From Amycolatopsis coloradensis (GTDB lineage: Bacteria; Actinomycetota; Actinomycetes; Mycobacteriales; Pseudonocardiaceae): a DNA stretch of 64,000 nt. Of the stretch, positions 16,483 through 55,742 are shown one piece after another. Location: the NCBI RefSeq assembly GCF_037997115.1, contig NZ_CP150484.1, positions 6,555,053-6,619,052 of the forward strand, in the 5' to 3' direction. Position numbers and translations under genes: made by a program. The stretch's first letter is position 1. Each line of letters opens with the position of its first letter. A model generated the notes under the pieces. The model was not told the DNA's origin. It worked only from the letters and a program-made list of their open reading frames with translations, and did not search any database.

Positions 16483-16491
16483 CGGGACGTG

Positions 16492-16618: not shown

Positions 16619-17838
<1,220 letters not shown>

Positions 17839-17842
<4 letters not shown>

Positions 17843-19020: not shown

Positions 19021-20132
19021 CCGACCTGCTGTATTCCGAGGTCGAAGAGGACCTTCGCGCCAGCGTCCGGGCTCTGTTCTCCGATCGCGCGGAGCCGGCG
19101 GCCCTGATCGCCAGGACCGAGACGGCGGAACCGTACGACCTGAAGTTGTGGCGCACGCTCGCCGCCGACCTCGGCGCGGCGGGCCTCGCCGTCCCGGAGG
19201 CGCTGGGCGGGCACGGCGCTTCGGCGCGGGAAGTCGCCGTCGTGATGGAGGAACTCGGGCGCAGCGTCGCCCCGGTCCCGTACCTCGGCAGCGCCGTCCT
19301 GGCGACGTCGGCCCTGCTGGCGGCCGACACGTCACAGGCCGAAGTGGCCGAAACGCTCGGGAAACTGGCCGCGGGCACGCTCATCGGCGCGCTGGCCGTC
19401 CCGCTGTCGGCCGCGCCCGGCGCCGAGTTCCCCTCGACGGTCGCCGCGGCCGCCGACGGCACGGTCAGCGGCCGGGTCCGCAGCGTCGCCGATGCTTCGG
19501 TGGCCGAACTGATCGTCGTTCCGGCGGTGGGACCCGACGGCCCCGGCCTGTACACGGTCGACGCTTCGGCGGCGGGAGTGACGGTCGCCGAGGCGATTTC
19601 CCTCGACCTCACCCGGCGCATCGCCGACGTCACCTTGGAGAAGGTTGCCGCGAAGCGTGTCGCCGGCCCCTCGGTGGCGGCGTCCGCGCTGGACACGGCA
19701 CTCGTGACCGCGGCGGGGCTGCTCGCCTCGGAACAACTCGGGATCGCCGAATGGGCGCTGACCGAAACGGTGCGCTATCTCAAGGAGCGCTACCAGTTCG
19801 GCCGTCAGGTCGGTTCGTTCCAGTCGCTGAAGCACCGGCTGGCGAACCTGTACACGGATCTGATCAACGCCAGGGCGACCGCGCGCTACGCCGCCGACTG
19901 CCTGGCCTCCGGCGACGACATCGCGATCGCCGTCGCGGTCGCGCAGGCCCGCAACTCCCCCATCGCCGTCCACGCCGCCGAAGAGGCGATCCAGCTGCAC
20001 GGCGGGATCGGCATGACCTGGGAGCACCCCGCGCACCTGTACCTGAAGCGCGCGAAGAGCGACGAGATCGCGTTCGGCACTCCTGGGCGGCATCGCGCCG
20101 CCCTCGCGCCGCTGATCGACCTGCCGGCCTGA
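19017..20132 (+). CDS. Acyl-CoA dehydrogenase-like partner subunit (no canonical catalytic Glu motif)
   Basis: A 371-aa acyl-CoA dehydrogenase homologue. It keeps the C-terminal helical domain (RYQFGRQVGSFQSLKHRLAN, about 259-278) and the AIQLHGGIGMTWEHPAHLYL region (about 323-342), but lacks the EGxSEI-type segment that supplies the catalytic base. Its middle beta domain is weakly conserved. This is the pattern of beta subunits in heteromeric FadE pairs, in which one FAD-binding face is completed by each chain. Overlapping start with the upstream alpha-type gene supports stoichiometric co-expression. Confidence 0.82.
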   Translation: MTDLLYSEVEEDLRASVRALFSDRAEPAALIARTETAEPYDLKLWRTLAADLGAAGLAVPEALGGHGASAREVAVVMEELGRSVAPVPYLGSAVLATSALLAADTSQAEVAETLGKLAAGTLIGALAVPLSAAPGAEFPSTVAAAADGTVSGRVRSVADASVAELIVVPAVGPDGPGLYTVDASAAGVTVAEAISLDLTRRIADVTLEKVAAKRVAGPSVAASALDTALVTAAGLLASEQLGIAEWALTETVRYLKERYQFGRQVGSFQSLKHRLANLYTDLINARATARYAADCLASGDDIAIAVAVAQARNSPIAVHAAEEAIQLHGGIGMTWEHPAHLYLKRAKSDEIAFGTPGRHRAALAPLIDLPA

Positions 20133-27269: not shown

Positions 27270-27974
27270 TCAGCCGGTGGGGCGCTGCATGACGTCCGAG
27301 GTGTACTTGACCGACGAAGGCTCGTGCCGCGAAGTGAACGGGCACTTCCAGTCCTCTTCGGTCATCCGTCCGGAGAAGTGCCGGGACGGCATCTGGTACT
27401 CGTAGGTGGTGAAGCTCGGGTTGACCGAGCCGTTGTTGGTCGTCTCGCGTTTGCGGATCGCGTCCTGCATCGAGAAGAACTTGTCGCCCAGCAACATGAA
27501 CTGCATCAGCGAGTTGAACGCGATCGCAGGCCGGGAGAACCTCCGGCTCGCCCGTGACGAACCCGGATGCATGCCGACGACGAAGAACGAGTGCCCGGCG
27601 ACGTGGAACCCGAAGTTCGGTTCGTCGGGGTCCGAGGTGGCGCCTTCGTCGAGGCCGTAGGTGCGGCTGTCGATGTCGTGGATCAGCTGGAGGTGGCGCC
27701 ACAGCAGGCGTTCGTACTCCTCCTCGTCGAGGATCCCGCCGGGTTCTTCGAAGGTGGACACGAACGTGCGAAAACTCTTGTCCGACAACGTGGGCCGGAT
27801 GTCGCGGGCATAGCCGAGCATGTCGCGGTAGTGGGCCCGCGCCGACTCCGGATCGCCCAGCGCCGGGTAGTGGCCGTGGACGATCGAGCCCTTCTTCAAC
27901 GCCGCACGAGCACCGAGACAGCTGAACTCCGTGGTCTGGATGAACGCTTCGAGCTCCGCTTTCGGGTCGCTCAT
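27270..27974 (-). CDS. YqcI/YcgG-family protein, GntA-like putative heme-dependent N-hydroxylase
   Basis: A 234-aa soluble protein with the YqcI/YcgG pattern: an N-terminal FSCLGARAALKKGSIVHGHY, LLWRHLQLIHDID (about 94-106), FGFHVAGHSFFVVGMHPGSS (about 126-145) with conserved histidines, and SRPAIAFNSLMQF (about 153-165). The best-known member, GntA of guanitoxin biosynthesis, uses heme to hydroxylate a guanidine nitrogen. It is the last gene of the PKS operon; the start (ATG 27974, GGAG upstream) overlaps the PPTase stop (ATGA). The context implies tailoring of the polyketide or of a nitrogen-containing starter or end group, for example N-hydroxylation of a guanidine or amine. The substrate is not in evidence within the window. 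Confidence 0.75.
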   Translation of the reverse strand: MSDPKAELEAFIQTTEFSCLGARAALKKGSIVHGHYPALGDPESARAHYRDMLGYARDIRPTLSDKSFRTFVSTFEEPGGILDEEEYERLLWRHLQLIHDIDSRTYGLDEGATSDPDEPNFGFHVAGHSFFVVGMHPGSSRASRRFSRPAIAFNSLMQFMLLGDKFFSMQDAIRKRETTNNGSVNPSFTTYEYQMPSRHFSGRMTEEDWKCPFTSRHEPSSVKYTSDVMQRPTG

Positions 27975-28729
27975 TTCACTCCGCCTTTCCGATACTCCCC
28001 GGCCGTTCGCCGCCTGCCGGGAAGCCAGTCGAAGGCACGCACGGTGACCGGGCGCACCGGGACGGCCAGCGCGGCCGCGTTGCCGGCGCCGGCGTCCAGT
28101 TCCGTGATCGTCCATTCAGGACGGTCTTCGAAGGCGACGTCGCCGCCGGTGAGGGTGAAGGAGGGCCCCGGCAGTCCGGCCAGTCCGGTGCCGTCGACCT
28201 TGAGGTAGGCCTCCTTGCAGGTCCAGTACCGGAAGAAGGTCAGCGGCTCGCGGACGGCGGCGGCCTCTTCCGGACGCAGTGTCCGCGCGGCCAGTCCGCC
28301 GTGGTCGACCTCCCGGACCTCCTCGACGTCCACGCCGACCCGGACCCCGGCCGCGACCGCGACCAGCGCCAGCGCGCCGGACCGGGACAGGCTGAATTCG
28401 ATCCCCGTCGCGCCTGCCAGTGCCGGGCGGTCGCCGTCGCGGGTGAACCGCAGCTCGGACGGCGGGGTGCCCGTGTACGACGCGAGGATGTCGCGCAGCG
28501 CGACATGCGCGGCCAGGAACCGGGCCCGTTCCTCGTCCACCGCGATCGCGGCGGCCCGGCGCAGCTCGTCTTCGGAGAGCGCGCCGAGCAGACCGTAGGC
28601 CTCGGACGAGCCCGGGGCGAGCACCCGCGCGAGGGCGATCCGCCACACGTGCACGTCCCGGCCGGGGCTGAGCCGTTCGCCCAGCGCGCCCGAGGGCTGT
28701 TTCCACGCCGGGAACCACTGCGTGGTCAT
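27971..28729 (-). CDS. Sfp-type 4'-phosphopantetheinyl transferase
   Basis: A 252-aa enzyme with the Sfp-type signature: VGVDVEEV (about 135-142, Mg-binding Asp and Glu) and the downstream FRYWTCKEAYLKVDGTGL (about 170-187, the WxxKEA motif). It transfers phosphopantetheine from CoA to conserved serines of the PKS ACP domains and the discrete ACP, turning them into holo forms. Start ATG 28729 overlaps the thioesterase stop, and the gene itself overlaps the GntA-like gene. Its presence in the operon indicates a dedicated activator for this PKS. Confidence 0.9.
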   Translation of the reverse strand: MTTQWFPAWKQPSGALGERLSPGRDVHVWRIALARVLAPGSSEAYGLLGALSEDELRRAAAIAVDEERARFLAAHVALRDILASYTGTPPSELRFTRDGDRPALAGATGIEFSLSRSGALALVAVAAGVRVGVDVEEVREVDHGGLAARTLRPEEAAAVREPLTFFRYWTCKEAYLKVDGTGLAGLPGPSFTLTGGDVAFEDRPEWTITELDAGAGNAAALAVPVRPVTVRAFDWLPGRRRTAGEYRKGGVK

Positions 28730-29472
28730 CGGCCCAGTTTCCGGTGGATCACGTCCAGCAGCGCCGCCCTGTGCTGCTCGAGATAGAAGTGCCCGCCCGG
28801 GTAGGTCACCATCGTCGAGTCGGTGGCGAGTTCGAGCCACGCCGCCAGTTCGTCCAGATCGGCCCGCGGATCGCGGTCGCCGCCGAACACGGTCAGCGGC
28901 ACCGGCAACGGTTCCCCCGGGACATGCCGGTAGGTCTCGTTGACCGCCAGATCGGCCCGCATCAGCGGCAGGAACATCGCCAGCAGTTCGCGCTCGCGGC
29001 GCAGGACGTCCGGCAGACCGCCGAGGGCGTGCAGTTCGGCGGCGAGCCGCTCGTCGGGCAAAGCCCGCAGCTGGAGCCGGGTGTCGGGCAGCTGCGGGGC
29101 CGCCCGCCCTGACACGAACAGATGCTTCGGCAGCGTGGCCCCGCGCTCCGCGAGCCTGCGGGTGAGCAGGTACGCGGTCAGGGCGCCGACACTGTGCCCG
29201 AAGAACGCGAAGTCACCGGTGAGCGCGTCCCCGAGCCCCTCGATCGCCGCCTCGACAAGGCTTTCGACGTCTTCGTGCGGTGTCTCGCGACCGCGTTCGG
29301 CACGGCCGGGCAACTGGACCGGCAGGACGACCAGCCTTTCGCCCGCCGCGAGGACCCATTCCCGGTAGACCGCCGCGCTCGCTCCGGCGTGCGGGAAACA
29401 GAACAGCTTGGCCGCCTCGGCAGGCGGGATCCCGCCGGGCAGCCAGGGACATGCCGTGCTCGGAGCGGTCAT
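28726..29472 (-). CDS. Type II thioesterase (editing alpha/beta hydrolase)
   Basis: A 248-aa alpha/beta hydrolase of the TEII family. N-terminal KLFCFPHAGASAAVYREW (about 22-39) is typical; the nucleophile elbow is FFGHSVGALTAYLL (about 93-106), and the catalytic His is in GGHFYLEQH (about 227-235) with an Asp before it (GGDRDPRADLD). TEIIs remove stalled or aberrant acyl groups from carrier proteins. Because none of the PKS proteins seen here ends with a TE domain, this enzyme could also take part in product release, but TEIIs usually edit. ATG 29472 overlaps the FkbH-like stop. Confidence 0.9.
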   Translation of the reverse strand: MTAPSTACPWLPGGIPPAEAAKLFCFPHAGASAAVYREWVLAAGERLVVLPVQLPGRAERGRETPHEDVESLVEAAIEGLGDALTGDFAFFGHSVGALTAYLLTRRLAERGATLPKHLFVSGRAAPQLPDTRLQLRALPDERLAAELHALGGLPDVLRRERELLAMFLPLMRADLAVNETYRHVPGEPLPVPLTVFGGDRDPRADLDELAAWLELATDSTMVTYPGGHFYLEQHRAALLDVIHRKLGR

Positions 29473-30518
29473 CGCAGCTCCATCGTCAGATAGGGCGGCG
29501 GCGGCTGGATCGTGCTCAGATCGGACTCCAGGACGAGCCGGTCGCCGTCCCGCGAGATCTCGGTGAAGCCCGCGAACGCGTAGGTCACGTACATGACCCG
29601 GTTGCGGCCGGTCTCGACGAAGTCCGCGCGCAGTTTCGCGCCGTCTTCCTTCGCCAGTCCCATGATGTGGTTGAGCAGCACCGTGCCGACCCCGCGCGAC
29701 ATCACGCGGCACGACATCAGCATCATCCGCAGATGCCAGGCCGGCGCGCCGCGTTCGGCCAGCGCCAGGCCGATCTTGCCGTAGCCGCCGTACTTGTCGG
29801 AAAGGGAGGCTACGAGCAGGACGTGGTCGGGCGAGGTGCGCAGCTCGTCCAGCTCGTCGTAGGAGTAGGTCCGGCCGGTGGAGTTGAGCTGGTTGGTGCG
29901 GACGGTCAGTTCCTCGGCCCGCTGCAGGTCCTCCCGCTGGGCACGCGCGATCGTGAACTTCATGTCCAAAGTGGACAAAAACTCCTCGCTGGTGCCCTCG
30001 TGGTCCTGTTCGACCTGCTCCCGCACGGCGGCAGCGCGGTAGAGTTCGCGGCGCACCCGCGACTCGTCGGTGACGAACTTCGGCCGGAACTCCTCCGACG
30101 CCAGTGCTTCCCCCAGCTTCGCCACGTCGACGGTCTTGACCGAAGGCAGCGCGTGCGCGACCTCGGCCAATTCGAACGGCTGGTCGTCGACGAACGCGAT
30201 CGCGTCGAGACCGATGTTCAGCGACTTCGCGATCCTTTCCACGGAACCGGATTTGGGGTTCCAGCTGATCTGCGGGTACAGGAAGTACTCGTCGAGCCCG
30301 GCCGCCTTCAGCCGCGTCATCGCCGCTTCGTGGTCGTTGCGGCTGGCCACCGAATGCAGGATGCCCAGTTCGTCGAGCCGCTTGATCTCCGCCACGACCT
30401 CCGGCCGTACGGTGACCTCGCCGTCTTCCAGCAGCGTGCCGTCCCACAGCGTGTTGTCGAGATCCCACACCACGCATTTGATCCGGCCCCGTTTGGGTTT
30501 CTCCAGCACCTCGGTCAT
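29469..30518 (-). CDS. FkbH-like glyceryl-ACP synthase/phosphatase
   Basis: A 349-aa HAD-superfamily protein. The DxDxT nucleophile motif is VVWDLDNTLWDGTLL (about 16-30), DDQPFELAEV (about 111-120) supplies the metal-binding aspartates, and the C-terminal GNAT-like region (KYGGYGKIGLALAERG, about 242-257) is typical of the family. FkbH-type enzymes take D-1,3-bisphosphoglycerate, dephosphorylate it and load a glyceryl unit on a discrete ACP. With the adjacent dehydrogenases and ACP this begins the path to hydroxymalonyl-ACP. Gene order is that of ansamitocin asm13-16. Start ATG 30518 overlaps the acyl-CoA dehydrogenase stop. Confidence 0.9.
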   Translation of the reverse strand: MTEVLEKPKRGRIKCVVWDLDNTLWDGTLLEDGEVTVRPEVVAEIKRLDELGILHSVASRNDHEAAMTRLKAAGLDEYFLYPQISWNPKSGSVERIAKSLNIGLDAIAFVDDQPFELAEVAHALPSVKTVDVAKLGEALASEEFRPKFVTDESRVRRELYRAAAVREQVEQDHEGTSEEFLSTLDMKFTIARAQREDLQRAEELTVRTNQLNSTGRTYSYDELDELRTSPDHVLLVASLSDKYGGYGKIGLALAERGAPAWHLRMMLMSCRVMSRGVGTVLLNHIMGLAKEDGAKLRADFVETGRNRVMYVTYAFAGFTEISRDGDRLVLESDLSTIQPPPPYLTMELR

Positions 30519-31654
30519 CCCGGCACCTCCCGATACGCCTCGTCCGCGATGGTCAGCTCCTGGATCTGGGTGCTGCCCTCGATGATTTCCATGACCTTCG
30601 CGTCGCGGTACAAGCGCGCCACCGGGTAGTCGGGGCCGCAGCCGTTCGCGCCGTGGATCTGGACCGCGTCCGAAGCCGCCTTGGCCGCGGCCGTGGACGC
30701 GAAGTACTTGGCCACCCAGGTCGCCATGATGGTCGCCGGATCGCCCGCGTCCTTGAGCCGCCCGGCCTTCTCGCACAGCAGGCGCGCGGCGTCGCGCGCG
30801 GTGACCATCTCGCTGATCTTGGCGCGGATCTGCGGCAGATCCCGCAGCAGCCCGCCGCCCGCGGACCGCACCGACGTGTAGGCGGCCGACGCGGCGAGCG
30901 CCGCCCGCACGATCCCGACCGAACCGCACGCCACGCTGTAGCGCCCGAGGTCGAGCGCGCCGGTCATCACCGTGCCCGCGGCCCAGCCCGGCGGACCGAC
31001 CAGCGCGGACGGGTCGAGCCGGACGTCGTCGAACTCGATGGTCGCCAGCATGCTCGCCGTGGTGCCGAGCATGTGCCGGACCGGGGTCACCCGGACCCCC
31101 GGATGATCCGAGGGCACCAGGAACGCGCTCATCCCGGTGGCCGTGCCGGCGAACACCAGCAGCAGCCCGGCGACCTGGCCGCCGGTGATCCAGGTCTTGC
31201 GCCCCCGCAAAGTCCAGACGCCGTTCTCGGCGACGGCCACGGTGCCCGCGGCCGTCGAGTCGCTACCGCTGAAATCCGGCTCGGTCAGGCAGAACGCGCC
31301 CAGCGTCGCGCCGTCGGACAGGACGGGCAGCCAGCGCTCGCGCTGCTCATCGTCGCCCCAGCGTTGTACCGTCGCGGTCACCATCGTGTGCACGGTGAGC
31401 AGGCTCCGCAGCGAAGAACAGCCGCGGCCCGCCTCCTCGTGCAGCCGCCCGAGGGTGACCATGTCCAGCCCGGCGCCGCCGGCTTCGACGGGGAGGAACG
31501 GGGCCCACAGTCCCAGCGCCCCCACCCGCCTCAGCACCTCCGGGGGGATGTGCTCGGCCCGGTCCCACGCGTCCGCGTGCGGGCCGACCTCCTCGTCGAC
31601 GAAACGCCCGATCACCTCGACCGCGGGCGTTTCGGGCCGTGTCCTCGCCCTCAC
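30515..31654 (-). CDS. Acyl-CoA dehydrogenase-like enzyme of hydroxymalonyl-ACP formation (FkbI/Asm15 type)
   Basis: A 379-aa flavoprotein of the acyl-CoA dehydrogenase family: CLTEPDFSGSDSTAAGTV (about 120-137) at the FAD site, RKTWITGG (about 151-158), and EIIEGSTQIQELTIADE (about 357-373) with the probable base. In FkbI/Asm15 systems it oxidises the aldehyde-level 2-hydroxy-3-oxopropionyl-ACP to hydroxymalonyl-ACP, or an equivalent step. Start GTG 31654 has GGGAGAACGAC upstream. It lies 13 nt after the discrete ACP gene and overlaps fkbH, so it is unlikely to act in general fatty-acid oxidation. Confidence 0.87.
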   Translation of the reverse strand: MRARTRPETPAVEVIGRFVDEEVGPHADAWDRAEHIPPEVLRRVGALGLWAPFLPVEAGGAGLDMVTLGRLHEEAGRGCSSLRSLLTVHTMVTATVQRWGDDEQRERWLPVLSDGATLGAFCLTEPDFSGSDSTAAGTVAVAENGVWTLRGRKTWITGGQVAGLLLVFAGTATGMSAFLVPSDHPGVRVTPVRHMLGTTASMLATIEFDDVRLDPSALVGPPGWAAGTVMTGALDLGRYSVACGSVGIVRAALAASAAYTSVRSAGGGLLRDLPQIRAKISEMVTARDAARLLCEKAGRLKDAGDPATIMATWVAKYFASTAAAKAASDAVQIHGANGCGPDYPVARLYRDAKVMEIIEGSTQIQELTIADEAYREVPG

Positions 31655-31667
31655 GTCGTTCTCCCGT

Positions 31668-31919
31668 TCAGTGCGCGGCCGCGGCGGTGCGCCGCTCGAC
31701 CAGTTCGGTCATCCGCGTGACGGTGCGGAAGTTGTCCAGCTTCAGTTCCTCGTTGGGGATCCGGGTGGCGAACGCCTTCTCGATGAACATGACCAGCTCC
31801 ATCGCGAACAGGGAGTTCACGAAACCCAGCGCGAAGATGTCCTGTTCGTCGGTGAACGACAGGCTGGGGAACTTCGCGCCGATGAAGCCGCGGATCTCGC
31901 CGCGGACGTCCTGCGACAT
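31668..31919 (-). CDS. Discrete acyl carrier protein for glycerate-derived extender unit
   Basis: An 83-aa ACP. The phosphopantetheine attachment site is the serine in DIFALGFVNSLFAMELVMFI (about 27-46); the GFVNSLFA form is characteristic of FkbJ/Asm14-type carrier proteins that hold glyceryl, hydroxymalonyl and methoxymalonyl groups. It carries the three-carbon unit while it is oxidised by the neighbouring enzymes, then donates it to a PKS acyltransferase. GAGAGAGG precedes ATG 31919. A 106-bp gap with strong hairpins separates it from the upstream dehydrogenase gene, unlike the overlapping junctions elsewhere in the operon. Confidence 0.92.
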   Translation of the reverse strand: MSQDVRGEIRGFIGAKFPSLSFTDEQDIFALGFVNSLFAMELVMFIEKAFATRIPNEELKLDNFRTVTRMTELVERRTAAAAH

Positions 31920-31951: not shown

Positions 31952-32030
31952 GCTGAAGGGGCCCTTCACCGCATGCGATGCGACGAAAGCGCCCTTCACC
32001 GCGTGAGACGAGGGGAAAGTCCCCTTCAGC
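31952..32030 (-). promoter_or_regulatory. Intra-operon inverted repeats between dehydrogenase and ACP genes
   Basis: GCTGAAGGGG (31952-31961) and CCCCTTCAGC (32021-32030) form a perfect 10-bp stem that includes the dehydrogenase stop codon. Inside, TGAAGGGGCCCTTCA (31954-31968) is a perfect 15-bp palindrome, and a second related CGCCCTTCACCGCG lies at 31990-32003. In mRNA this could attenuate or process the operon transcript, allowing the ACP and following genes to be expressed at a different level from the PKS genes. Confidence 0.5.
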
Positions 32031-32871
32031 CGCCGTAGTTGTAGAAACCCTTGCCGCTCTTGCGCCCGTGCAGCCCGGCCGCGGTCATCTGCTTGAGCAG
32101 CGGGCAGGGGCGGTACTTGCTGTCGTTGAACTCGTCGTAGAGGACCTCGACGCTGTAGAGGATCGTGTCGACGCCGATCAGGTCGGCGGTCTCCAGCGGG
32201 CCCATCGGGTGCCCGAAGCAGCCGCGGAACACTTCGTCGACCGTCTCCGCGTCCGCGACCCCTTCGTGCACGAGGAAAGCGGCCTCGTTGACGGTGAGCA
32301 TCAGCACGCGGTTCGAGACGAACCCGGAGGCGTCGTTGACCGGGATCGGCTTCTTTCCCATCGACAGCAGCAGCTCGCGCACGATGTCCTTTGTGGACTC
32401 ACTGGTGTGGTAGCCGGGGATGAACTCGCACGAAGGCTTCATCGGCACCGGGTTCATGAAGTGCACCCCCATCACCTTGTCCTGGCGCCGGGTGAGCGCC
32501 GCGACCTTGGTGATCGGGATGGCGGAGGTGTTGACGACGAACACGGTGTCGGCCTTGCAGGCCTCGTCGAGTTTCGGGTACAGGCGGGACTTGAGGTCCC
32601 AGTTCTCGGTGATGTTCTCGATCACCACTTCGGCCTCGGCGAGCAGGGCGAGCTCGGTGCCGAAGGTGATCCGGCCGAGTACGGCGGCCGCGTCGATCTC
32701 GGGGCCGCCGAGCATGCGGCTCATCCGGCATTCGAGTTCGATCCGGTCGCGGGCGTCGGCCAGTTTTCCCGGGTCGACGTCGATGAGCACGGCCTCGTGC
32801 TCGCTGGTGGCGAGGTTCTGCGCGACCCCGGTGCCCATCACACCGGCGCCGACGACTCCGACGAGGGTCAT
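32026..32871 (-). CDS. 3-hydroxyacyl-CoA dehydrogenase-like enzyme (FkbK/Asm13 type), glyceryl-ACP dehydrogenase
   Basis: A 281-aa protein. NAD-binding GVVGAGVMGTGVAQNLA (about 5-21) is followed by VVIENITENWDLKSRLYP (about 82-99), the catalytic-His region GVHFMNPVPMKP (about 134-145), and a C-terminal helical domain with SGFVSNRVLM (about 180-189) and GCFGHPMGPLETADLIG (about 216-232). FkbK/Asm13 homologues oxidise glyceryl-ACP to the aldehyde. Start ATG 32871 has a strong AAGGAGG and overlaps the KS-AT gene stop. The order dehydrogenase, ACP, acyl-CoA dehydrogenase, FkbH copies asm13-16; the asm17-like methyltransferase is missing. Confidence 0.9.
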   Translation of the reverse strand: MTLVGVVGAGVMGTGVAQNLATSEHEAVLIDVDPGKLADARDRIELECRMSRMLGGPEIDAAAVLGRITFGTELALLAEAEVVIENITENWDLKSRLYPKLDEACKADTVFVVNTSAIPITKVAALTRRQDKVMGVHFMNPVPMKPSCEFIPGYHTSESTKDIVRELLLSMGKKPIPVNDASGFVSNRVLMLTVNEAAFLVHEGVADAETVDEVFRGCFGHPMGPLETADLIGVDTILYSVEVLYDEFNDSKYRPCPLLKQMTAAGLHGRKSGKGFYNYGG

Positions 32872-35798
32872 CGTTCCTCCTTGGCTGCGTTGCTCGTGGT
32901 CAGGTCCAGCACGCCGTCGAGCCGGCCGTGGGCGGCCCGGACGGCGTCGGCGCCGCCGGGGTGCTGGTCGGCGAACACGACGGTCGCGCCCAGTTCGGCA
33001 CCCAGCCGGGTGGCCAGGTCGCGGGCGGTGACGTCCAGTTCGCCTTCGATCAGGTAGACCGGGGTCTCGGCGGACCGGGCGCCGAGCGCGACGTCGGTGA
33101 CGGCCCTGGTCGGCTCGATCCAGTAGCGGTCGCGCTGGAACGGATAACCCGGCAACGTGGTCTTCCGCGGGTCGCGGCCGTCGTGATAGGCCCGCCAGTC
33201 GATGTCCGCCCCGGAAAGCCAGGCGCGGCCGAGCGCTTCGGTGAGCACGGCCGTGTCCTGGCGGGGGTCGGCCTCGCCGGGCAGGGTCGGAACCAGCAGC
33301 GGCCACGAGGTCTGCGGGAAATCGGGGTGACCGCGGAACATCGAGCCGAGCGACTGCCCGGCTCCCAGTTCCAGCAACACGGTATCCGGGGAAACACTGG
33401 CAAGATGCTCGATCATCGCCGCGAACCGCACGGGACGGCACATGTGCTCGGCCCAGTAGCCGGGATCCTTCAGCTGCTTGAGCGTGATCGGCGCGCCGGT
33501 GACGTTCGACAGGTAGGGCACTTCCGGCTCGCGCGGCGTGAGGTTCTTCCGCGCCCACGCGGTCAGTTCCGCCGCGGCCGGGCGCAGGGCCCGCGAGTGG
33601 AAGGCGTGCGTGGTGCGCAGCGGCCTGGCCGGGACGCCGTGTCCGGCGAGTTCGGCGGCCAGCCTTTCGACGCCGTCGCCGGCGCCGGACACCACGATCA
33701 TCCGCGGTCCGTTCACCGCGGCGACGTCGACGCCGAACGCCGTCACGTCGCCCACCAGCGCGGTGAGTTCGGCGGCCCCCAGCGGGACCGCGGCCATCGC
33801 GCCTTCCGGCAGCTTCTCGATCAGCTTCGCGCGGGTGGCGACGAGCGCGGTGGCCTCTTCCAGGGTCAGGGCCCCGGCGAGCGTGGCGGCGGCGAACTCG
33901 CCGACGCTGTACCCGGCGAGCACGGACGGCTGGACTCCCCAGGCGCGCAGCAGGCGGCCGAGCGCGTAGCCGAGGGTGAACACTGCGGGCTGGGTGACCG
34001 ACGGAGCGGCGTCCTCGCTGTCGGTCGCGCGACCCAGCAGGCGGGCGAGGTCGCCGCCGTCGGAACCGCGAGAGCCGTGCAGGCTCGTCGTCGGGTCAGT
34101 GCCGAGATGCGACTTGAACAGTGCGGCGCATTCGTCGACGGCGGCCTTGAACTCCGGCTCGCTCTCGTAGAGTCCACCCGCCATGCCGCGGTACTGCTCG
34201 CCGACCCCGGCGAGCAGGAAGCCGGCCTTCCGCGGCTTCGAGTCCGCTTCGGCCACCACGGACGCGAACGCGTCGACGGCGTCATCCACAGAGGACACAA
34301 CCGTCATCCGCCGGTGCTCGAACGCCTTCCGGCCGTTGTGCAACGTGTAGGCGACGTCGGCCAGATCCGTCCACTCAGGACTGGAGGCGGCGAGCCTGCC
34401 GGTCATCGCGTCCGCCGCTTCGGAGGTCCGCGCGGACCACACGAGCAGCTGGTGCGGACGCGCGGGCGGACGCTCCGGGCAGTCCTCCGGCGCTTCCTCG
34501 ATGACGACGTGGGCGTCGGTGCCGCCGAAGCCGTACGCGCTGACGCCGGCCAGCCGGGGCCGCTCGCCGCGCGGCCAGTCGCCCAGTTCGGTCTGCACGA
34601 CGAGTTTGTCACCGCTGTGGGCGAGCTGCGGGTTGGGCTTCTCGAAGTTGACCGCGGGCGGCAGCTTCTCGTGGTGCAACGCCAGCGCGGCCTTGATCAG
34701 GCGGGCGACGCCGCCCGCCTGGTTGATGTGCCCGAGATTCGCGTCGATCGAGCCGAGAGTGACCCGCTCGACGCCGTCGACGTCGAAAATCTTCTGTAGC
34801 GCGGAGATCTCCGCGACGTCACCGAACGGGGTGCCCAAAGTGGACACTTCGATATGGTCGATCTCGTCGGGCTCGACGTCGGCGGCGGCCATCGCCTCCG
34901 CTACGACGGCGGCCTGGCCGGGAACGCCCGGCAGGTTGAACCCTTGCCGCGCGCGGTTGCCCTCGTGGTGGATGGCCCAGCCCCGGATCACCGCGTAGAC
35001 GCGGTCGCCGTCGGCCAGCGCGTCCTCCAGCCGCCGCAGCACGACGACGCCGAGACCGTTCCCTGGAACCTTGCCGTTGGCGCCCGCGTCGAGGATCCGG
35101 TTGATGCCGTCGGGCGCGAACCGGCTGCCCTCACGGTAGAGATAGCCCGGTTCCTGAGGCACCACAACGGAAACCGAGCCGGACACGACCAGGTCGGACT
35201 CGCCGGTGAGCAGGCTGGAGCAGCCCTGCGCGACGGCGGCGAGCGCCGTCGAGCTACAGCTCTGCACGCTGACCGACGGGCCGGTCAGATCGAGCGCGTA
35301 CGACAGCCGGGACGCGAGCAGATCCTTCTCGTTCTGCAGGATCAGCTGATCCGGGCCGACGGTCAGCGCGGTGACGTCGTTGGACAGCAGGTTCGACAGC
35401 AGGTACGTACTCGGGGCGCCGCCGGCGAACACCCCGGCGAGGCCTTCGATCCGGTCCGGGTCGACACCCGCGTCCTCCAGCGCGTGCCACGCGCATTCGA
35501 GGAACAGCCGGTGCTGCGGGTCGAGGAGTTCGGCGTCGGCGCGGCTGTAGCCGAAGAAGTCGGCGTCGAAGCGGTCGATGCCGGGCAGCAACCCGGCCGC
35601 GGGGACGAACGCGGGATCGTCGGCCACTTCGGCGGGGACGCCCGCGGCCAGCAGTTCGGCGCGGGTCATCCGGGTGATGCCGTCGCGGCCGGCGCACAGA
35701 TCGGCCCAGAACTTGCCGATGTCGGGCGCGCCGGGAAAGTTCCCGGCCATGCCGACGATCGCGATGTCGTCGCCGGTGTCCCGTTCTCGCGTGGTCAT
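32868..35798 (-). CDS. KS-AT didomain protein with catalytically dead KS and intact-looking AT
   Basis: A 976-aa protein: KS (12-~440), linker, AT (~545-830), then ~100 residues ending in a KR-like structural remnant. There is no ACP, KR active site or TE. The KS aligns without gaps through GPSVSVQSCSSTAL, so Ser182 sits where the catalytic Cys belongs (a Cys is one position earlier). EAHGTGT is EVSTLGT (His to Ser319), and KSNIGH is DANLGH (Lys to Asp352; the last His remains). Such a KS should not condense. The AT keeps its nucleophile in GYSVGE (Ser631) and the His in HAFHS (~734), a malonyl-like motif. Only 11 residues precede the KS, with no docking helix. It starts 8 nt after the PKS whose last AT is dead, and just before the hydroxymalonyl-ACP genes. 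I infer a trans-acting AT, or alternatively an unusual transacylase or release factor. Confidence 0.85.
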   Translation of the reverse strand: MTTRERDTGDDIAIVGMAGNFPGAPDIGKFWADLCAGRDGITRMTRAELLAAGVPAEVADDPAFVPAAGLLPGIDRFDADFFGYSRADAELLDPQHRLFLECAWHALEDAGVDPDRIEGLAGVFAGGAPSTYLLSNLLSNDVTALTVGPDQLILQNEKDLLASRLSYALDLTGPSVSVQSCSSTALAAVAQGCSSLLTGESDLVVSGSVSVVVPQEPGYLYREGSRFAPDGINRILDAGANGKVPGNGLGVVVLRRLEDALADGDRVYAVIRGWAIHHEGNRARQGFNLPGVPGQAAVVAEAMAAADVEPDEIDHIEVSTLGTPFGDVAEISALQKIFDVDGVERVTLGSIDANLGHINQAGGVARLIKAALALHHEKLPPAVNFEKPNPQLAHSGDKLVVQTELGDWPRGERPRLAGVSAYGFGGTDAHVVIEEAPEDCPERPPARPHQLLVWSARTSEAADAMTGRLAASSPEWTDLADVAYTLHNGRKAFEHRRMTVVSSVDDAVDAFASVVAEADSKPRKAGFLLAGVGEQYRGMAGGLYESEPEFKAAVDECAALFKSHLGTDPTTSLHGSRGSDGGDLARLLGRATDSEDAAPSVTQPAVFTLGYALGRLLRAWGVQPSVLAGYSVGEFAAATLAGALTLEEATALVATRAKLIEKLPEGAMAAVPLGAAELTALVGDVTAFGVDVAAVNGPRMIVVSGAGDGVERLAAELAGHGVPARPLRTTHAFHSRALRPAAAELTAWARKNLTPREPEVPYLSNVTGAPITLKQLKDPGYWAEHMCRPVRFAAMIEHLASVSPDTVLLELGAGQSLGSMFRGHPDFPQTSWPLLVPTLPGEADPRQDTAVLTEALGRAWLSGADIDWRAYHDGRDPRKTTLPGYPFQRDRYWIEPTRAVTDVALGARSAETPVYLIEGELDVTARDLATRLGAELGATVVFADQHPGGADAVRAAHGRLDGVLDLTTSNAAKEER

Positions 35799-35806: not shown

Positions 35807-38800
35807 TCACCTTCCGGTCCGGCTCGGGCGCTTGCGGAGCTTGGCGGTGCGGGCGCGGCGGCGCTCGCCGCGCGCGGAGACGTCTTCGGCGGGCTCGGCG
35901 GCCACCTGCGGCGCGCCGGGTTCGCCGAGAAGCGTGACGAACTCGGCGATGGTCGGTTTCTCGAACAGGCTCGCCGGGGCCAGTTCGACGCCGAACTCCT
36001 TGGCGACGCGGCCGATCAGCACCAGGCCGATCAGCGAAGTACCGCCGAGGTCGAAGAAGGGGTCGTGCACGCCGACCTGTTCCAGGCCGAGGCAGTCGCA
36101 CCAGGCGGCGGCGACGCGCTCTTCGGCCGGGGTGCGCGGGGCGACGTACGCGGTGCGCAGATCGGGTCGCGGGTACCGCTCTCCGGTGGGGATCGCGGCG
36201 TCGGCGCCGACCAGCGCGTCGACCGAGCCCATCCGGGCCAGCGCGGCCAGCACGTCGGCCAGCGGGAGCGGCAGCACGGTCACCAGCGGCTCTCCGGAAG
36301 CGACGATCCGCGAGAGCAGTTCGGTGCCTTCTTCGGCGCCGATGCCGAACTCCTCACGGAACTTGCGGGAGCCCTCCTGCGCTTCGGCGGAACCCGAAAG
36401 CCCGGACGCCGTCCAGGCATCGAGCTGCCAGGGACCCCACGCGACCGAGACGACCTGCTTCGCGGGACCGCGTCCGCCCGCCGAGGCCGAGGCGACCCCG
36501 TCGAGGAAGGCGTTGGCCGCGGAGTAGTCGATCTCGCCGACGCCGACGGTGAGCGTCACCGTCGAGGAGTACAGGATCAGCAGGTCGACCGGTTCGACGC
36601 GCAGCGCCTCGGTCAGGGCCAGGGTGCCGTCGACCTTCGGCGCCAGCACCGCGGCCGCCTGCTCACGGGTCTTGTTCTGCAGCAGGCCACCACCGGCGAC
36701 CCCGGCCGCGTGCACCACGCCGTCGAGGTAGCCGAAGTAACCGCGGACCTCCGCCAGCAGCGCCGCGGCCTCGCCGGGGGCACTGACGTCGGCGCGCAAG
36801 GTGAGGACGTCGGCGCCGAGGGCGCGCAGATCCCGGACCGCCAGCAGGACTTCGCTCGTGCGGTCATCCACGCCATGATCCCGGATCCAGTCGTCCCAGG
36901 TCTCCTCCGGCGGCAGCTCGGACCGGCCGGCCAACGCGAGGTTCATCCCCAGCGGCGCGAGCCGCCGGGCCAGCGCGAGACCGAGGACACCGAGCCCGCC
37001 GGTGATCAGGTAGGTACCACCGGGCTTCCAGGCCAGCGAGTCGTCGACCTCGGGCAGCTCGACGACGTCGAAGCCGCGCAGCCAGCGCCGTCCGCCGCGC
37101 CAGGCGGCGACCGCGACGCCGTCGACGGTGTCCACTGTGGACGCCGCCAGGAGGTCGAGCTCGTGCAGGGCCTGGGCGACCTTGTCCCCGGCGCGGTCGA
37201 AGTCCGCGTACTGCGCGTGGACCAGCGGGTACTCGGCGGCGATCGCGTCGGCCGTGGCGGCGATGGTCGGGGCGAAGGCGTCGGTGGCGTCCCCGCCGAG
37301 GACGTCGAAACCGTTGCGTCCCAACGCGAGCAGATCGACACGACGCCCGGCGCATTCGGCGCCGATTGCCTTGCCGAGCTCCAAGAGGCTGTAGAAGCCG
37401 GATTCGAGGCCGCCTGCGGTGAGCCCGAGGGCGTGCACGATCCGCAGCGGGCCGTCCCCGGCGAGCACCTGGCGGTCCATCTCGGAGGCGACCGTGACGC
37501 GGTGCCCGGCGGCCTCCGCGGCGACCGCGAAGTCGTCGGCGAAGGCACCCGGCTCGGCGAACAGGACCAGGTCCCCCGGCGTCGCGGGGACTCGGCGAGT
37601 GGTGTCCCGATGCCACGTCGGAGTGTGCGCGGCCAGACCGGCGCGAACCGGTGTCTCCGGCTCGGCGGCGGACATCTGGTCGAGCGACCAACCCGAGCCG
37701 CGCGAGGCGACCTCCGGCCAGTAGCGGGTGCGCTGGAAGCGGTAGCCGGGCAGCGAAACGAACCGGCGGTCCGGTCCCGCGCCGTCCGCCCAGCCGATCT
37801 CGACGCCGTGCTCCCACAGCGTGCCGAGCGCGGTCAGCCAGGCACGCCGTCCGGTACCGGCCACCGGCTCCGGCAGCAGGGAGACCACCGGCGTCTGCGG
37901 CAGGTAGCGTCCGGCCGCCTCGGCGCCGTCGTCGCCGAGCCCGGCTTCCACCAGGACTCCGGCGTACTTCGCCAAGGCCAGCAGGCCGTCTTCGAAGCGG
38001 TCGTCCGCGATCCGCCAGTGGGCCGGGTCCGCGGCCTCGGCGGCGGTGAGCACCGTGCCGGTGCGGGGCGAGATCACCGGCGCCGTGGGCGTTCCCACCC
38101 GTGGGACCGGCCCGCCGAGCGCGAGTTCGAGGCCTTCGGCGAGCCCGAACAACCCGCCCGCGACGGCGGCGACACATTCGCCGGTCCCGCGTCCGAGCAC
38201 CACGGCCGGTTCGAGGCCCCATGCGGTCAGCAGCCGGCAGAAGGCGTACTCGACGGCGAAGACCACGGCTCGTTCGTCGGCCTCGGCCGTGCCGTAGAGC
38301 GCGCCGAGGAGGTCGGCCCGGCCGTCCAGCAGGGCGGCGCATTCGTCGATCGCGGCGCGGAACGCGAGTTCCGTGCGGTACAGCTCGTCGGTCGTGCCCT
38401 GCCAGGCGCGGCGGGTGCCGGGCAGCAGGAGACCGAAGCGCCGCTTGTCGGTGACGGCCGAGCCGCCGGTGACCGCGCGCAGTGCCGTGACGGCGTCGGC
38501 GTGGTCGCGCACCAGCACCGCCTTGCGGACCGGCAGTGCGCTACGCCCGGCCTGAGTCGTGAAGGCGACGTCGGCGAGTTCGAGGTCTTCGGTCAGGTGA
38601 TCGGCCAAGGCCTCGGCGTTCGCGCGCAGCCCGGCTTCGCTCTGCCCGGACACCGTGAGCAGTTGCCATTCCGGGCCCGGCGCGGGCATCGGAGCGGGCG
38701 CCGCCTGATCGAGGACGAAGTGGACATTGGAGCCGGACCAGCCGAACGAGCTGACGCCCGCGCGCAGCACCCCGTCGGCGTTGGCCGGGAAGGGACGCGC

Positions 38801-41800
38801 CTCGGGGACCGGGCGGACCGTGCCGTCCACGGTGACCACCGAGTTCGGCGTGCTCAGGTGCAGGTTGCCCGGCAGGGTGCCGTGTTCCAGCGACAGCACG
38901 GTCTTGATCAGCCCGGCCATCCCCGCCGCGGCGAGCGTGTGGCCGACGTTCGTCTTGACGGCGCCGACGTAGAGCGGTTCGGGCGCGTTCCGCTCGCCGA
39001 AGATCTCACCGAGGGCGGTGAACTCGATCGCGTCGCCGAGTTGTGTGCCGGAGCCGTGTGCCTCGACGTAGCCGACCTCGTCGGGGGTGACCCCGGCGTC
39101 GGCGAGCGCCGCGCGGATGACCGCGTTCTGCGCCGCGCGGTTGGGTGCGGTGAGCCCGTTGCTGCGGCCGTCCTGGTTGGTCGCGGTGCCGCGGATGACC
39201 GCGCGGGTCCGCCTGCCCGGGCCGACCTCGCCCGCCCGGCGGAGCACCACGACGCCGCCGCCCTCGCCGATGACGTAGCCGTCGGCGCTCTCGTCGAAGG
39301 TCTTGGTGCGGCCGTCGGCGGCCAGCATGCTCATCTTGCAGGACTGGATGAACACGTCCGGGTTGATCATCGCCGAGGCCGCGCCGACGATCGCGATGTC
39401 GCATTCGCCGCGGCGGAGGCTCTGCACGGCCAGGTGCGCCGCGCTCAGCGCCGACGAGCAGGCGGTGTCGACGGTCAGACAGGGCCCGCGAAGGTCGAGC
39501 AGATGCGCGATGCGGCCGGCGGCGGCGGAAAGCGAGCTGCCGAGCCCGAAGTAGGGGTCGTCGGCCGCGTCCATGCCGTCGGCTTCGAGCTGCCGCATGC
39601 TGTACTGCATGGTGTCGATGAGTCCGGCGAACACGCCGGTGCGGCTGCCGCGCAGTTCGTCGGCGGTGAGCCCGGCGTCTTCGATGCCTTCCCACACCAG
39701 TTCCATGAGCAGGCGGAAGGTCGGGTCGAGCCTCCGCGCTTCCTGCGGAGAGAGGCCGAAGAACGCCGCGTCCCAGCCCGCGATGTCGTCGACGAACGCG
39801 CCCTGCTGCGTGTACGCCTTGCCCGGCGCGGTGCGGTCGGGGTCGTAGTAGTCGGCGGCGGTCCAGCGGTCCGGCGGCACCTCGCGGACCAGATCCTTGC
39901 CCTGGACGAGGTTCTCCCAGAACTTCTCCGGGGTGTCGCTGCCACCGGCGAAGCGGCAGGACAGACCGACGACGGCGACGTCCTGGCCCGCGGCGGCCGG
40001 TCCGGTGACGACGGTCCGCGGCTCCTGGGCCACAGGAGTGAGCGCGGCCAGCAGATGCGTGGCGAGCGCGGCCGGGGTCGCGTGGTCGAACACCATGGTC
40101 GGCGGCAGCGCAAGTCCGGTCTCGGTGTTGATCCGGCCGCGCAATTCGATGGCGGTGAGCGAATCGATACCCAGTTTCGTGAACTGCTGCCCGGCCGGGA
40201 CACCGTCGGTGTGTCCGAGGACGGCGGCCGTGTGGGTCAGGACGAGTTCGGTGAGCACGCGTTCGCGTTCGGCCTCGGGCAGTCCGGCGAGCCGGGCTCG
40301 CCACGCGTCGGCGGCTTCGGCGCCTTCCTCGGCGCGGGCGGCTTCGGCCTCGGCGATGGCGACGACCTCGGGCAGGTCGGCCAGCAGCGGGCTCGGCCGC
40401 AGCGCGGCGAACGGTGGGGCGAACTTCTCCCAGGTCAGTTCGGCGACGGTCAGCACGGTCTCGTCCCGGTCCAGTGCCTGCCCGAGCGCGACCAGGCCGG
40501 TCTCCGGGGCCATGGCCGGGACGCCGAGACCACTGAGCAGTTCGTCGAGGTCCGCGCCGACACCCATGCCGACCTCGCCCCAGCGACCCCACGCGATCGA
40601 CGTCGCGGGGAGCCCGTTCGCCCGGCGGCGCTGCGCGACCGCTTCGAGATGCGCGTTCGCGGCGCCGTAGGCACTTTGGACCGCGTTGCCGATGGAGGCG
40701 GCGATCGAGGAGAACAGGACGAAGGCGTCTAGGTCGAGCCCGTCGGTGAGCTCTTCGAGGTTGCGTGTTCCGGCGACCTTCGGGCGGAGGACGTCGGCGT
40801 AGCGCGTGCGGTCCATCGACTCGATGAGACCGAGTTCGAGCACGCCGGCGAGGTGGAAGACCGCGCGAAGATCGCCGCGGATCGGCTCGATGACGGCGGC
40901 GAGGGCGTCGCGGTCGGCGACGTCGCAGGCGGCGATGGTGACGCGATCCCCGGCCAGTTCGGCCGCGCCGGGAGCGTCTTCTCCGTGGCGGGAAACGAGA
41001 ACGACGTGGTCGGCGCCGTGGTCGGCCAGCCACCGGGCGACGATCCCGCCGAGTCCGCCGGTGCCGCCGGTGACGAGCACGGTGCCGCGCGGCTGCCAGG
41101 ACCGCTGGGGCTCGGCGGGCTCGGCGTGAGCGAGCCGCCTGCCGAACGCGCCAGCGGCCCGGACGGCGACCTGGTCCTCGCCGCGAGGGCCGGTGAGGAC
41201 GCCGCGCAGCAAGGCGACGGTCCGCTCCCCCGCCTCGGCCGGGACGTCGACGAGGCCGCCCCACGCTTGCGGGTTCTCCAGCGCCGCCGCCCGGCCGAAG
41301 CCCCACAGCTGGGCCTGGGCAGGCGAATCCGGCGCGTCGTGGGCGCCGGTCGAGACCGCGCCCCGGGTGAGCGTCCACAGTGGACCTTGCGGGTCGCGGG
41401 CGGTCAGCTCCCGCACCAGGGTCATCGTGGCCTCGGCGCCGAACGAGAGTCCGTCGGTCTCGGTCTCGTCGAGGGCCAGCAAGGACAGGATGCCGTCGAA
41501 GGTCTCGTCCGGCAGTTCCACACGATCGGGCTGCTCGACGACGAGCCGCCGCACCTCGGCACCGGCCAGTGCCTCGACGGCGGTCTCGATCCACGGGTGC
41601 TCGCGAGACGACGTGACGAGCAGCCAGCGCCCGGTGGCCGCGGTCGTCGCGGGGGTGAACGGCTGCCAGCGGACATGGTAGGCCAGCGAAGCCGCCTCGG
41701 CCGACAGCGACCGAGCGCGGCGGTAGCGAGACAGCGCGGGCAGGACGGTGCCGAGCGGCGCTTCGACGTCGGACAGCTTCAGTTCGGCGGCGAACTCGCC

Positions 41801-44539
41801 GACGTCGCCGGATTCGACGACCGACCAGAACCGGCCGTCCTCGGCGGCGACCACGCCCGCGCCCGGGTCTTCCAGCCAGAAACGCTTGCGCTGGAAGGGG
41901 TACGTCGGCAGCGGGACGACCCGCGCACCGCTGCCATCGAGGTAGGCGGCCCAGTCGACACGGGCGCCGTGGGCGTGGATCAGGCCCAGCGCGGCGACGA
42001 GCGTGGCGGCCTGGTCGCGGTCCTTGCGCTGGGCCGCGGCGAACACAACGCCTTCAGGGCGGACCGACCGGCCCATCGGGGTGAGCGCGGCGTCCGGACC
42101 GAGTTCGAGGAAGGTCGTGACGCCTTCGCCGTGCAGGGTTTCCACCGCGTCGGCGAATCGGACGGTCCCGCGGACGTGCTCGGCCCAGTACGCCGGATCC
42201 GTGAGGCGGTCGGCGAGCTCGCCGGTCAGGGTCGAGACGACCGGGATCGCGGGCTCGCGGAAGGTCAGGGTCCGCGCGACGGCGGCGAAGTCGGCGAGCA
42301 TCGGCTCCATCAGCGCCGAGTGGAAGGCGTGGGACACCGAAAGCCGGGTCGTGCGGCGGCCGGGGAAGCGTTCCGCGACGGCGGTGGTCGCTGCCTCGGC
42401 GCCGGACAGGACGACCGCGCGGGGGCCGTTGACCGCCGCGAGGGCGACGTCGGCCGACAGGTACGGGCGGACCTCGTCTTCGGTCGCCTCCAGCGCGATC
42501 ATCGCCCCGCCGTCGGGCAATGCCTGCATCAACCGGCCGCGAGCAGCGACCAGGCGAGCCGCGTCCTCCAGTGAAAGCACCCCGGCGATGTGGGCGGCCG
42601 CGATCTCGCCGACCGAATGCCCGGCGAGGAAGTCGGGGGTCACACCCCAGGACGCGACGAGCCGGAAGAGGGCGACCTCGAACGCGAACAGGGCGGGCTG
42701 GGCGAATTCGGTGCGGTCCAGGCGCGCCGCGTCGGTGCCGAAAACGACGTCCCGGACTCCGGGCAGGTGTGCGCAGGCCTCGTCGAAGGCCTCGGCGAAC
42801 ACCGGGAAACACTCGTGGAGACGGCGGCCCATGCCGAGCCGCTGTGAACCCTGGCCGGTGAACAGCACGGCCAGCCGTCCCGCGGTGTCGCTGCCGGTGA
42901 CCGGACCCGCTTCGCCGCCCGCAAGGGCGCGGAGACCGGCAGTCAGCTCGGCGCGGTCGGCACCGGTGACGACCGCGCGGTGCTCCATGGTGGCGCGGGT
43001 GGTGGCCAGCGAGAACGCGACGTCGGCCGGTTCGGCGCCCGATTCGTCCACAGTGGACAACAGGGCGGCGGCCTGCGCGCGGACGGCGGCGGGCGAGGCG
43101 CCGGACAGCACGTACGGAACCACCGGCGGCGCCACGATCTCGCGGTCCTCGGCGGGCGTTTCGGCAGGCTGCTCCAGGATGACGTGCGCGTTGGTGCCGC
43201 TGATCCCGAACGACGACACGCCCGCGCGGCGCGGCCGGTCCGTCGCGGTCCACGGGCGGGCCTCGGCGAGCAGTTCCACCGCGCCGGCGGACCAGTCCAC
43301 GTGCGGCGACGGCGCGTCGACATGCAGCGTCGCGGGCAGCGTGGCGTGGCGCATCGCCTCGACCAGTTTGACGATGCCGGCGAGACCGGCGGCGGCCTGG
43401 GTGTGGCCGATGTTGGACTTCACCGAACCCAGCCACAGCGGGGTTTCGCGGTCGCGACCGTAGGTGGCCAGCAGGGCCTGCGCCTCGATCGGGTCACCCA
43501 GCGCGGTCCCGGTGCCGTGCGCCTCGACGACGTCCACAGTGGACGCTTCGATACCGGCGTTCGCGAGCGCGGCGCGGATCACGCGTTGCTGCGACGGGCC
43601 GTTCGGCGCGGTCAGGCCGCTGGAGGCGCCGTCGGAGTTGACCGCGCTGCCGCGGACGAGAGCAAGGACCGGATGGCCGTTGCGGCGCGCGTCGGAAAGC
43701 CGCTCCAGCACCAGCATCCCGGCGCCCTCGGCCCAGTTGGTGCCGTCGGCGGCGGCCGCGAACGGTTTGCAGCGACCGTCCGGCGCGAGCCCCCGCTGCC
43801 GCGAGAACTCGACGAACGCACCGGGCGTCGCCATCACCGTGACACCGCCCGCGAGCGCCAGCGTGCATTCCCCCGACCGCAGCGCGCGGGCGGCGAGGTG
43901 GACCGCGACCAGCGACGACGAGCATGCCGTGTCGATCGACACCGACGGCCCTTCGAGACCGAGCGCGTAGGAGACGCGGCCCGACACGACGCTGCCCGAG
44001 GTACCGATGCCGAGGTAGCCCTCGTGCTCTTCGGGTAGCGCGGTCAGTCGTGACGCGTAATCGGTGAACCCGACCCCGGCGAACACCCCGGTGGCGCTGC
44101 CCTTGAGCGAATGCGGGTCGATCCCGGCCCGCTCGACGGCTTCCCACGCCGTCTCCAGCAGCAAGCGCTGCTGCGGGTCGGTCGCCTCGGCCTCCCTCGG
44201 CGAGATGCCGAACAGCTCGTTGTCGAATTCCGCGGCGTCGTGCAGGAACCCGCCCTCGCGGACGTAACTGGTGCCGGGCACGGAAGGGTCGAGATCGTGG
44301 ATCGCGTCGGTGTCCCAGCCGCGGTCGGCCGGGAACGGCGAGATCGCGTCACCACCGCCGTCGACCAGCTCCCACAGCTGTTCCGGGGTGCGGACACCGC
44401 CGGGGAACCGGCAGCTCATCGCGACGATCGCGATGGGCTCGGTCTCCTTCTCCCGCGCGTCCGCCAGCTCGCGGCGGCTCTCCCGCAGGTCGGCCGCCAT
44501 CCGCTTGAGGTAGTCGACGTACTGCTCTTCCGAAGGCAT
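35807..44539 (-). CDS. Type I modular PKS, two modules: KS-AT-KR-ACP, KS-(AT degenerate)-KR-ACP
   Basis: A 2910-aa protein. An N-terminal coiled-coil docking helix (1-33) precedes module 1: KS (34-~460, Cys ~205, HGTGT, KSNIGH), AT (~560-850, GHSVGE Ser ~642, HAFH, malonyl-type), KR (TGGTGGLGG ~1156, Tyr ~1290; no LDD motif, so probably A-type) and ACP (GIDSLTA Ser ~1459). Module 2: complete KS (~1518-1940, Cys ~1693, HGSGT, KTNVGH). Its AT has LGRGTGE (Gly2118 for the catalytic Ser), and the subdomain with HAFH is deleted. The KR (GGLGVLG ~2510, Tyr ~2672) resembles those of hybrid or trans-AT systems. The ACP is LGGTSLIG (Ser ~2834). The tail is strongly basic instead of a docking domain. 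Start ATG 44539 follows GAGGAG. Module 2 needs an extender from elsewhere. Confidence 0.93.
43046..43058. repeat. GTCCACWGTGGAC palindrome family (representative copy)
   Basis: Perfect copies of GTCCAC(A/T)GTGGAC occur at 18140, 37130, 41373, 43046, 43532, 48672, 55929, 60975 and 61914. One-mismatch copies are at 17841 and 48191, and looser variants at about 29,963, 34,834, 54,248 and 58,460. Far less than one 13-mer copy is expected by chance in 64 kb. Most encode STVD, but those at 18140 and 41373 encode PLWT in another frame, so protein constraint alone does not explain them. Confidence 0.7.

Positions 44540-44747: not shown

Positions 44748-55742
<10,995 letters not shown>

Follow-up and report, generated by a model that had tools for sequence, protein, structure and literature searches.

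The last PKS encoded in this stretch of Amycolatopsis coloradensis DNA ends in a module with a dead AT, and the gene behind it encodes the reverse defect, a dead KS (KS°) joined to an intact AT. These two proteins raise the question of how the ACP of the last module obtains its extender unit. We consider it probable that the second protein (KS°-AT) is what remains of a module that once followed, and that it now supplies the last module with hydroxymalonyl as a trans-acting transferase. The window analysed was the whole stretch of 64,000 nucleotides, and the positions of the features inside it are collected in Table 1.

Domain states of the last module and of KS°-AT

The preliminary description had claimed an intact KS, KR, and ACP in the second module of the last PKS, and the catalytic residues that we read bear this out. 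The KS showed the motifs [13 protein letters not shown] and GH, and the KR kept its glycine-rich motif as well as the K, S, Y, and N residues. The claimed loss of the AT nucleophile and of the HAFH subdomain was exact. Residue 2118, numbered from the ATG (window 38186-38188, minus strand), is Gly within GRGTGE, whereas the other ATs of the PKS cluster have GHSxG at the equivalent site, and the domain aligned in two pieces, separated by a gap of about 100 residues at the HAFH-bearing stretch of the other ATs. Module 1 of the same protein has an intact malonyl-type AT. The range 35807-38500, to which the defective module had been assigned, contains its KR, ACP, and tail together with the larger part of the AT remnant, but not its KS.

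The KS°-AT gene starts 8 nt past the PKS stop. A dead KS and an intact AT had been claimed for it, and both were found: QSCSST places Ser182 at the Cys position and EVSTLGT places Ser319 at the first His, while the AT has GYSVGE with Ser631 and HAFH. The C-terminal stub is read as a KR remnant. Behind KS°-AT the HCDH, ACP, ACAD, and FkbH genes follow, in agreement with the private extender-ACP pathway that had been described. Elsewhere in the window, at 3473-20132 on the other strand, a set of genes for a HpaB-type hydroxylase, an AMP ligase, an O-methyltransferase, a FAD hydroxylase, a lyase, a MaoC protein, an APH, and several acyl-CoA dehydrogenases was observed, which apparently belongs to a separate pathway.

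Table 1. Features of the last PKS, KS°-AT, and the neighbouring genes (window positions)
Feature	Position	Strand	Remarks
Last PKS of the assembly line	35807..44539	(-)	2910 aa from ATG; KS-AT-KR-ACP + KS-AT°-KR-ACP
KS, last module	38699..39982	(-)	active-type, [15 protein letters not shown]
AT remnant, last module	37730..38653	(-)	Gly2118 for Ser nucleophile; HAFH stretch missing
KR, last module	36410..37057	(-)	catalytic residues present
ACP, last module	35915..36142	(-)	DLGGTSL; proposed hydroxymalonyl acceptor
Basic C-terminal tail of last PKS	35810..35878	(-)	core [10 protein letters not shown]; proposed docking element
KS°-AT protein	32868..35798	(-)	976 aa; dead KS, intact AT, KR-like stub, no ACP
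Dead KS of KS°-AT	34482..35768	(-)	Ser182 for Cys; Ser319 for first His
Intact AT of KS°-AT	33129..34382	(-)	GYSVGE with Ser631; HAFH
C-terminal stub of KS°-AT	32871..33083	(-)	absent in six Lentzea-type loci, L020-L025
3-Hydroxyacyl-CoA dehydrogenase (HCDH), hydroxymalonyl cassette	32026..32871	(-)	overlaps KS°-AT stop
Discrete ACP, hydroxymalonyl cassette	31668..31919	(-)	
Acyl-CoA dehydrogenase (ACAD), hydroxymalonyl cassette	30515..31654	(-)	
FkbH, hydroxymalonyl cassette	29469..30518	(-)	
Discrete thioesterase	28726..29472	(-)	
4'-Phosphopantetheinyl transferase	27971..28840	(-)	open frame, true start not fixed
GntA-like heme N-hydroxylase	27270..28115	(-)	N-hydroxyguanidine candidate; open frame, true start not fixed

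Conservation of the pair and the origin of KS°-AT

With the module as query, 23 loci were obtained, comprising 14 relatives (64-95% identity, L012-L025) and nine ordinary PKS modules (29-38%, L026-L034); the latter were left out of all counts, and some served as tree outgroups. The 14 relatives were found through the module and not through KS°-AT, and in all 14 the KS°-AT gene came directly after the module and was followed by HCDH, ACP, ACAD, FkbH, and TE in this order. Together with the present genome, 15 of 15 showed Gly at the nucleophile position, Ser for Cys in KS°, loss of its first His, and intact GYS and HAFH in the adjoining AT. The KS residues of the module were intact in 14 of 14 of these genomes, the contig of L015 starting after them.

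Seven further genomes were read, which brought the total to 22. Four (L067, L076, L077, and L078) had the residue states of the first 15. The other three (L068, L074, and L075) had the module AT deleted, and their KS° read QAHSAT and ETNASGT. In total, the module AT had Gly in 19 genomes and was deleted in three, and the active residues of the module KS were present in 21 of the 21 in which they were seen. In KS°, Cys was replaced by Ser and the first His by S, G, T, or N in 22/22, so two members of the Cys-His-His triad of a condensing KS were gone throughout; the second His was kept in 16/16 sequences where it was read. The AT of KS°-AT had GYS and HAFH, and its gene adjoined the module, in every one of the 22. 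Because identical residue states recur in all 22 genomes with the arrangement, Gly2118 and the KS° replacements are due neither to chance nor to sequencing error. Outside L012-L025, similarity to KS°-AT was the means by which most loci were detected, and finding the protein there is therefore not independent.

Among 80 Amycolatopsis genomes, KS°-AT (at least 87% identity) occurred in 10, and the module half from the KR to the tail (at least 84%) was adjacent to it in the same 10; five of these were matched to named loci by frame length, which is a presumptive assignment. Another 11 of the 80 had a KS-AT at 52-54% identity within larger frames. In 390 Pseudonocardiaceae, 49 places in 46 genomes were detected, and 34 of the 49 were read. 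As judged from these sequences, the pairing of KS°-AT with an AT-dead module is common to many Pseudonocardiaceae. Two Sciscionella genomes carried a second KS°-AT (70% identity; L072 869-3895 and L073 727-4122), for which no PKS domain was found within the 13.5 kb of fetched DNA, and each had only one close relative of the module. These copies without a module count against the reading of KS°-AT as a loader. The neighbours of the L072 copy included genes for a diol dehydratase subunit with its reactivase, a TetR protein, and a glyoxalase-like protein.

The origin of KS°-AT was examined in 34 loci, of which 22 had a stand-alone KS°-AT, four were of the butyrolactol type, and eight had both modules present. 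In L035 (Streptomyces cattleya pSCAT), a module with GHGVGE and no HAFH was followed by a protein of two complete modules (AT motifs GYSVGE and GYSLGE), an AT-less module, and then the cassette. L069, L079, and L083 were like L035 as far as they were fetched. Both modules had GYSxG ATs in L064, L065, L070, L071, L081, L082, and L084; L080 also had both modules, with its second frame stopping early after the AT. Homologous modules with an intact AT showed GYSxG in 8/8. An FkbH gene was located beside the PKS in G054, G042, G079, and G069, and also in G058, where the match was split over two frames (G058:C1:9671333-9672189) by either a broken gene or a sequencing error; no FkbH was found beside the PKS of G017, which stands outside the series.

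None of the 34 loci lacked both ATs. The KS was dead in 22/22 stand-alone KS°-AT proteins, compared with 0/12 complete next modules. In the trees, KS° joined the KS of the complete next module, and its AT joined the AT of that module (support 100/99 for both), while the last-module KS grouped with its S. cattleya counterpart. These results are best explained by KS°-AT being a remnant of the complete module that once followed. The losses would then have occurred in the order of both modules complete, loss of the module AT, and trimming of the next module to KS°-AT. In two loci of the butyrolactol type (L069 11289-18005 and L083 9404-17125), the module before the AT-less one was also AT-dead or had its AT deleted, which indicates that AT loss may spread along the line.

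Selection was assessed by simple pairwise estimates with four partners, and the values given here are for the present genome against Lentzea albida. KS° showed 76% identity and a dN/dS of 0.24, compared with 80% and 0.30 for the active KS of module 1, 75% and 0.25 for the AT of KS°-AT, and 83% and 0.20 for the KS of the last module. Constraint on KS° is therefore nearly as strong as on an active KS. The AT remnant had the lowest identity among the PKS domains (63%, dN/dS 0.35); the KR of the last module was also fast-changing (72%, 0.37). The tail as a whole (23 residues) was no slower than the rest against Lentzea (65%, 0.51), and its core alone was fixed, with SARG[E/Q]RRRAR in 15/15 genomes. 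In the series, the counterparts of the last PKS end in RGxRRR-like tails too, and the KS that follows each of them belongs to the same group. Tails of another kind were found on four other PKS proteins of the cluster and on one of S. cattleya; a fifth was cut by a run of N. We infer that the last PKS uses its basic C-terminus to dock onto the KS that follows it, which here would be KS°.

Extender specificity, product, and known systems

The two published ATs for ACP-bound extenders, from which the GYSxG criterion was taken, read GYSFG (ZmaA-AT) and GYSLG (ZmaF), and the CoA-type ATs tabulated with them read GHS (PMC4207774). The present genome gave 28 AT matches, comprising 24 GHS, one GRG (last module), one GYG, one GAS, and one GYS, so that KS°-AT is the sole GYSxG protein among them. 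Its AT is thus likely to be specific for an ACP-bound extender, as ZmaA-AT and ZmaF are. HAFH is kept, unlike in ZmaA, and the RXR position, at which ZmaA-type ATs carry hydrophobic residues, reads P-A-R, with the first basic residue gone and the last kept; the zwittermicin ATs differ from KS°-AT in both their YASH and RXR motifs. ZmaA-AT also works within a functional module, whereas the AT of KS°-AT is preceded by a dead KS and lacks a partner ACP on the same protein. In another PKS of the genome (L055, G000:C1:8033229-8034077), an AT with GYGIGE and a Gly nucleophile was observed in a 1076-aa frame with a KS, which makes this a possible second AT-dead protein.

Very probably, the locus corresponds to the octacosamicin cluster known from Amycolatopsis; a first identification as a boron-macrolide cluster was dropped. 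Liao et al. traced octacosamicin to A. azurea clusters 16.3 and 2.1, as cited in PMC11957118. The nearest named relatives belong to Amycolatopsis, and one of them, the A. azurea locus L012 (contig 2), was 95% identical to ours in both the module (best segment) and KS°-AT. Within a genome of 9.06 Mb, 12 KS domains besides KS° are clustered here, the same number as in A. decaplanina. With a C4 starter, 12 modules give a C28 chain. The name octacosamicin implies such a chain, and the compound carries guanidinobutyryl-derived and N-hydroxyguanidine groups. Genes at the far end of the cluster (amine oxidase, AMP ligase, VinK-like AT) suit a 4-guanidinobutyryl starter, and the GntA-like protein, whose gene was seen in the fetched DNA of 7/14 relatives, suits the N-hydroxyguanidine; for all four, the function was assigned by family only.

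A run of 870 N interrupts the third module (L009 18042-18911; G000:C1:6637094-6637963). A. decaplanina has about 3.2 kb at this place, with the rest of the AT, a DH, a KR, and an ACP, so the gene is cut by the gap and not by a stop, and the DH of this module was taken from A. decaplanina because of the missing letters. Octacosamicin B is listed with 638.39 in one table (PMC10056400), and m/z 625 and 639 are given for the octacosamicins in another source (PMC13122635). We tentatively read the formulas, by hand, as C32H54N4O9 and C31H52N4O9. Of the nine oxygens, five are left for the chain, and four of these would be the beta-oxygens predicted from the domains (modules B, C2, D1, and D2); one further chain oxygen is thus needed, as one hydroxymalonyl unit supplies. 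The predicted product has two hydrogens above the formula, which counts against the model, so either one step is mispredicted or an oxidation takes place. The module at 53043-55685 has an AT with GHSAGE and HASH, between the malonyl and methylmalonyl types, and a loose choice of extender there could account for the CH2 difference between octacosamicins A and B.

In their abstract on octacosamicin, Liao et al. (ChemBioChem 2024) reportedly mention a hydroxymalonyl extender and an alpha-hydroxyketone, and also a terminal PKS module that has neither ACP nor TE, the product being released by amidation. The oca cluster of A. azurea is very probably the same as ours, and this reported reading of a terminal module differs from the trans-acting AT proposed here. 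The preliminary description knew of no literature case of such a split module. No published precedent for the pairing of an AT-dead module with KS°-AT was recognised in a search that covered few subscription journals, but the cluster itself does have a published product.

The closest comparison is butyrolactol. Carbons C1-C8 of butyrolactol were labelled from glucose and not from acetate, which its authors read as incorporation of hydroxymalonyl-ACP (PMC5355916). The last four modules of the producer were described as KS/KR/ACP, KS/AT/KR/ACP, KS/AT/KR/ACP, and KS/DH/KR/ACP (PMC5932044). Since 11 modules match 11 extender units, two of the four hydroxymalonyl modules would lack an AT, if the line is colinear; this use of hydroxymalonyl by AT-less modules is a combination of the two papers made in the present analysis. 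From its gene order and sizes, L035 presumably corresponds to the S. cattleya cluster that Table 2 of the second paper (PMC5932044) lists by name. The butyrolactol PKS and L035 share with our locus a homologous module with a dead or missing AT, a homologous next module, and the same hydroxymalonyl cassette. Unlike in our locus, their next module is complete, its KS is active, and three more units are added.

Trans-AT synthases resemble the present line in having a module without a working AT and an AT on another protein. Their modules generally lack an AT, whereas here a full-length AT match was obtained in 10 of 12 modules; of the remaining two, the twelfth has the dead AT and one is cut by the N run. 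The other readable modules thus keep a cis AT, and the proposed loader is a truncated module rather than a free-standing AT.

Proposed mechanism and competing readings

According to the proposed mechanism, the last extension module lost its AT, and its ACP would be charged by the AT of KS°-AT, which would receive hydroxymalonyl from the separate ACP encoded in the FkbH cassette. KS°-AT would descend from a complete following module that lost its KR and ACP and had its KS switched off, while the AT was retained. Because this KS is switched off, the chain could not pass to KS°-AT. The dead KS was probably retained to hold the dimer and the KS-AT fold and to offer a docking surface for the basic tail. 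We infer both the transfer of hydroxymalonyl and the position of its unit in octacosamicin. A loader docked on the AT-dead module had already been suggested in the preliminary description, and the parts of that model that can be tested in sequence hold, namely the conserved adjacent pair, the GYSxG motif, the cassette, and the recurrence of the tail core on homologous proteins.

The reported ending of the octacosamicin PKS without ACP and TE, with release by amidation, would also suit a KS°-AT that acts as a non-canonical terminal module and attaches glycine, the last module being charged in some other way. The Ser at the old Cys position is invariant (22/22), and no obvious amide-forming enzyme was noticed among the annotated genes, which cover part of the neighbourhood. 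We nevertheless regard release as unlikely. With its variable first His, KS° retains no catalytic pair; Ser and HAFH of its AT are intact in 22/22, which release does not need, and a module without AT would still require a loader. It is similarly doubtful that KS°-AT both loads and releases, the invariant Ser accepting the finished chain from the last ACP and handing it to glycine.

That FabD or an AT from another module charges the last module with malonyl is improbable too; hydroxymalonyl would then be used elsewhere, or KS°-AT would serve another substrate or acceptor. Module 1 with its malonyl-type AT and the 24 GHS-type matches of the genome offer possible donors, and the second KS°-AT copies of Sciscionella stand without a module. 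However, every other readable AT motif in the PKS cluster is GHSxG and none is ACP-extender-like, the homologous modules with an intact AT carry GYSxG without exception, and the butyrolactol counterpart takes hydroxymalonyl if its line is colinear. Judging from the decayed look of the AT remnant and the C-terminal stub, the last module and KS°-AT might be mere leftovers that no longer participate. This is highly improbable given the open frames, the purifying selection on the KS, the ACP, KS°, and its AT, the catalytic residues kept in all genomes read, and the C28 chain that 12 modules and a C4 starter yield. A relic retained as the hydroxymalonyl loader of the last module is thus the reading that we prefer, and its pairing with the AT-dead module is best explained as a novel form of trans-AT complementation.

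For butyrolactol, which is already labelled, this reading implies that two modules need loading from elsewhere. If the loading is confirmed, KS°-AT would be a dedicated loader of a rare extender that probably works in a docked state, and its transplantation could be attempted in engineering. The terminus of the octacosamicin line would be read anew, since the protein after the last module would not elongate. The living relatives display the apparent steps by which one cis-AT elongation turned trans-AT.
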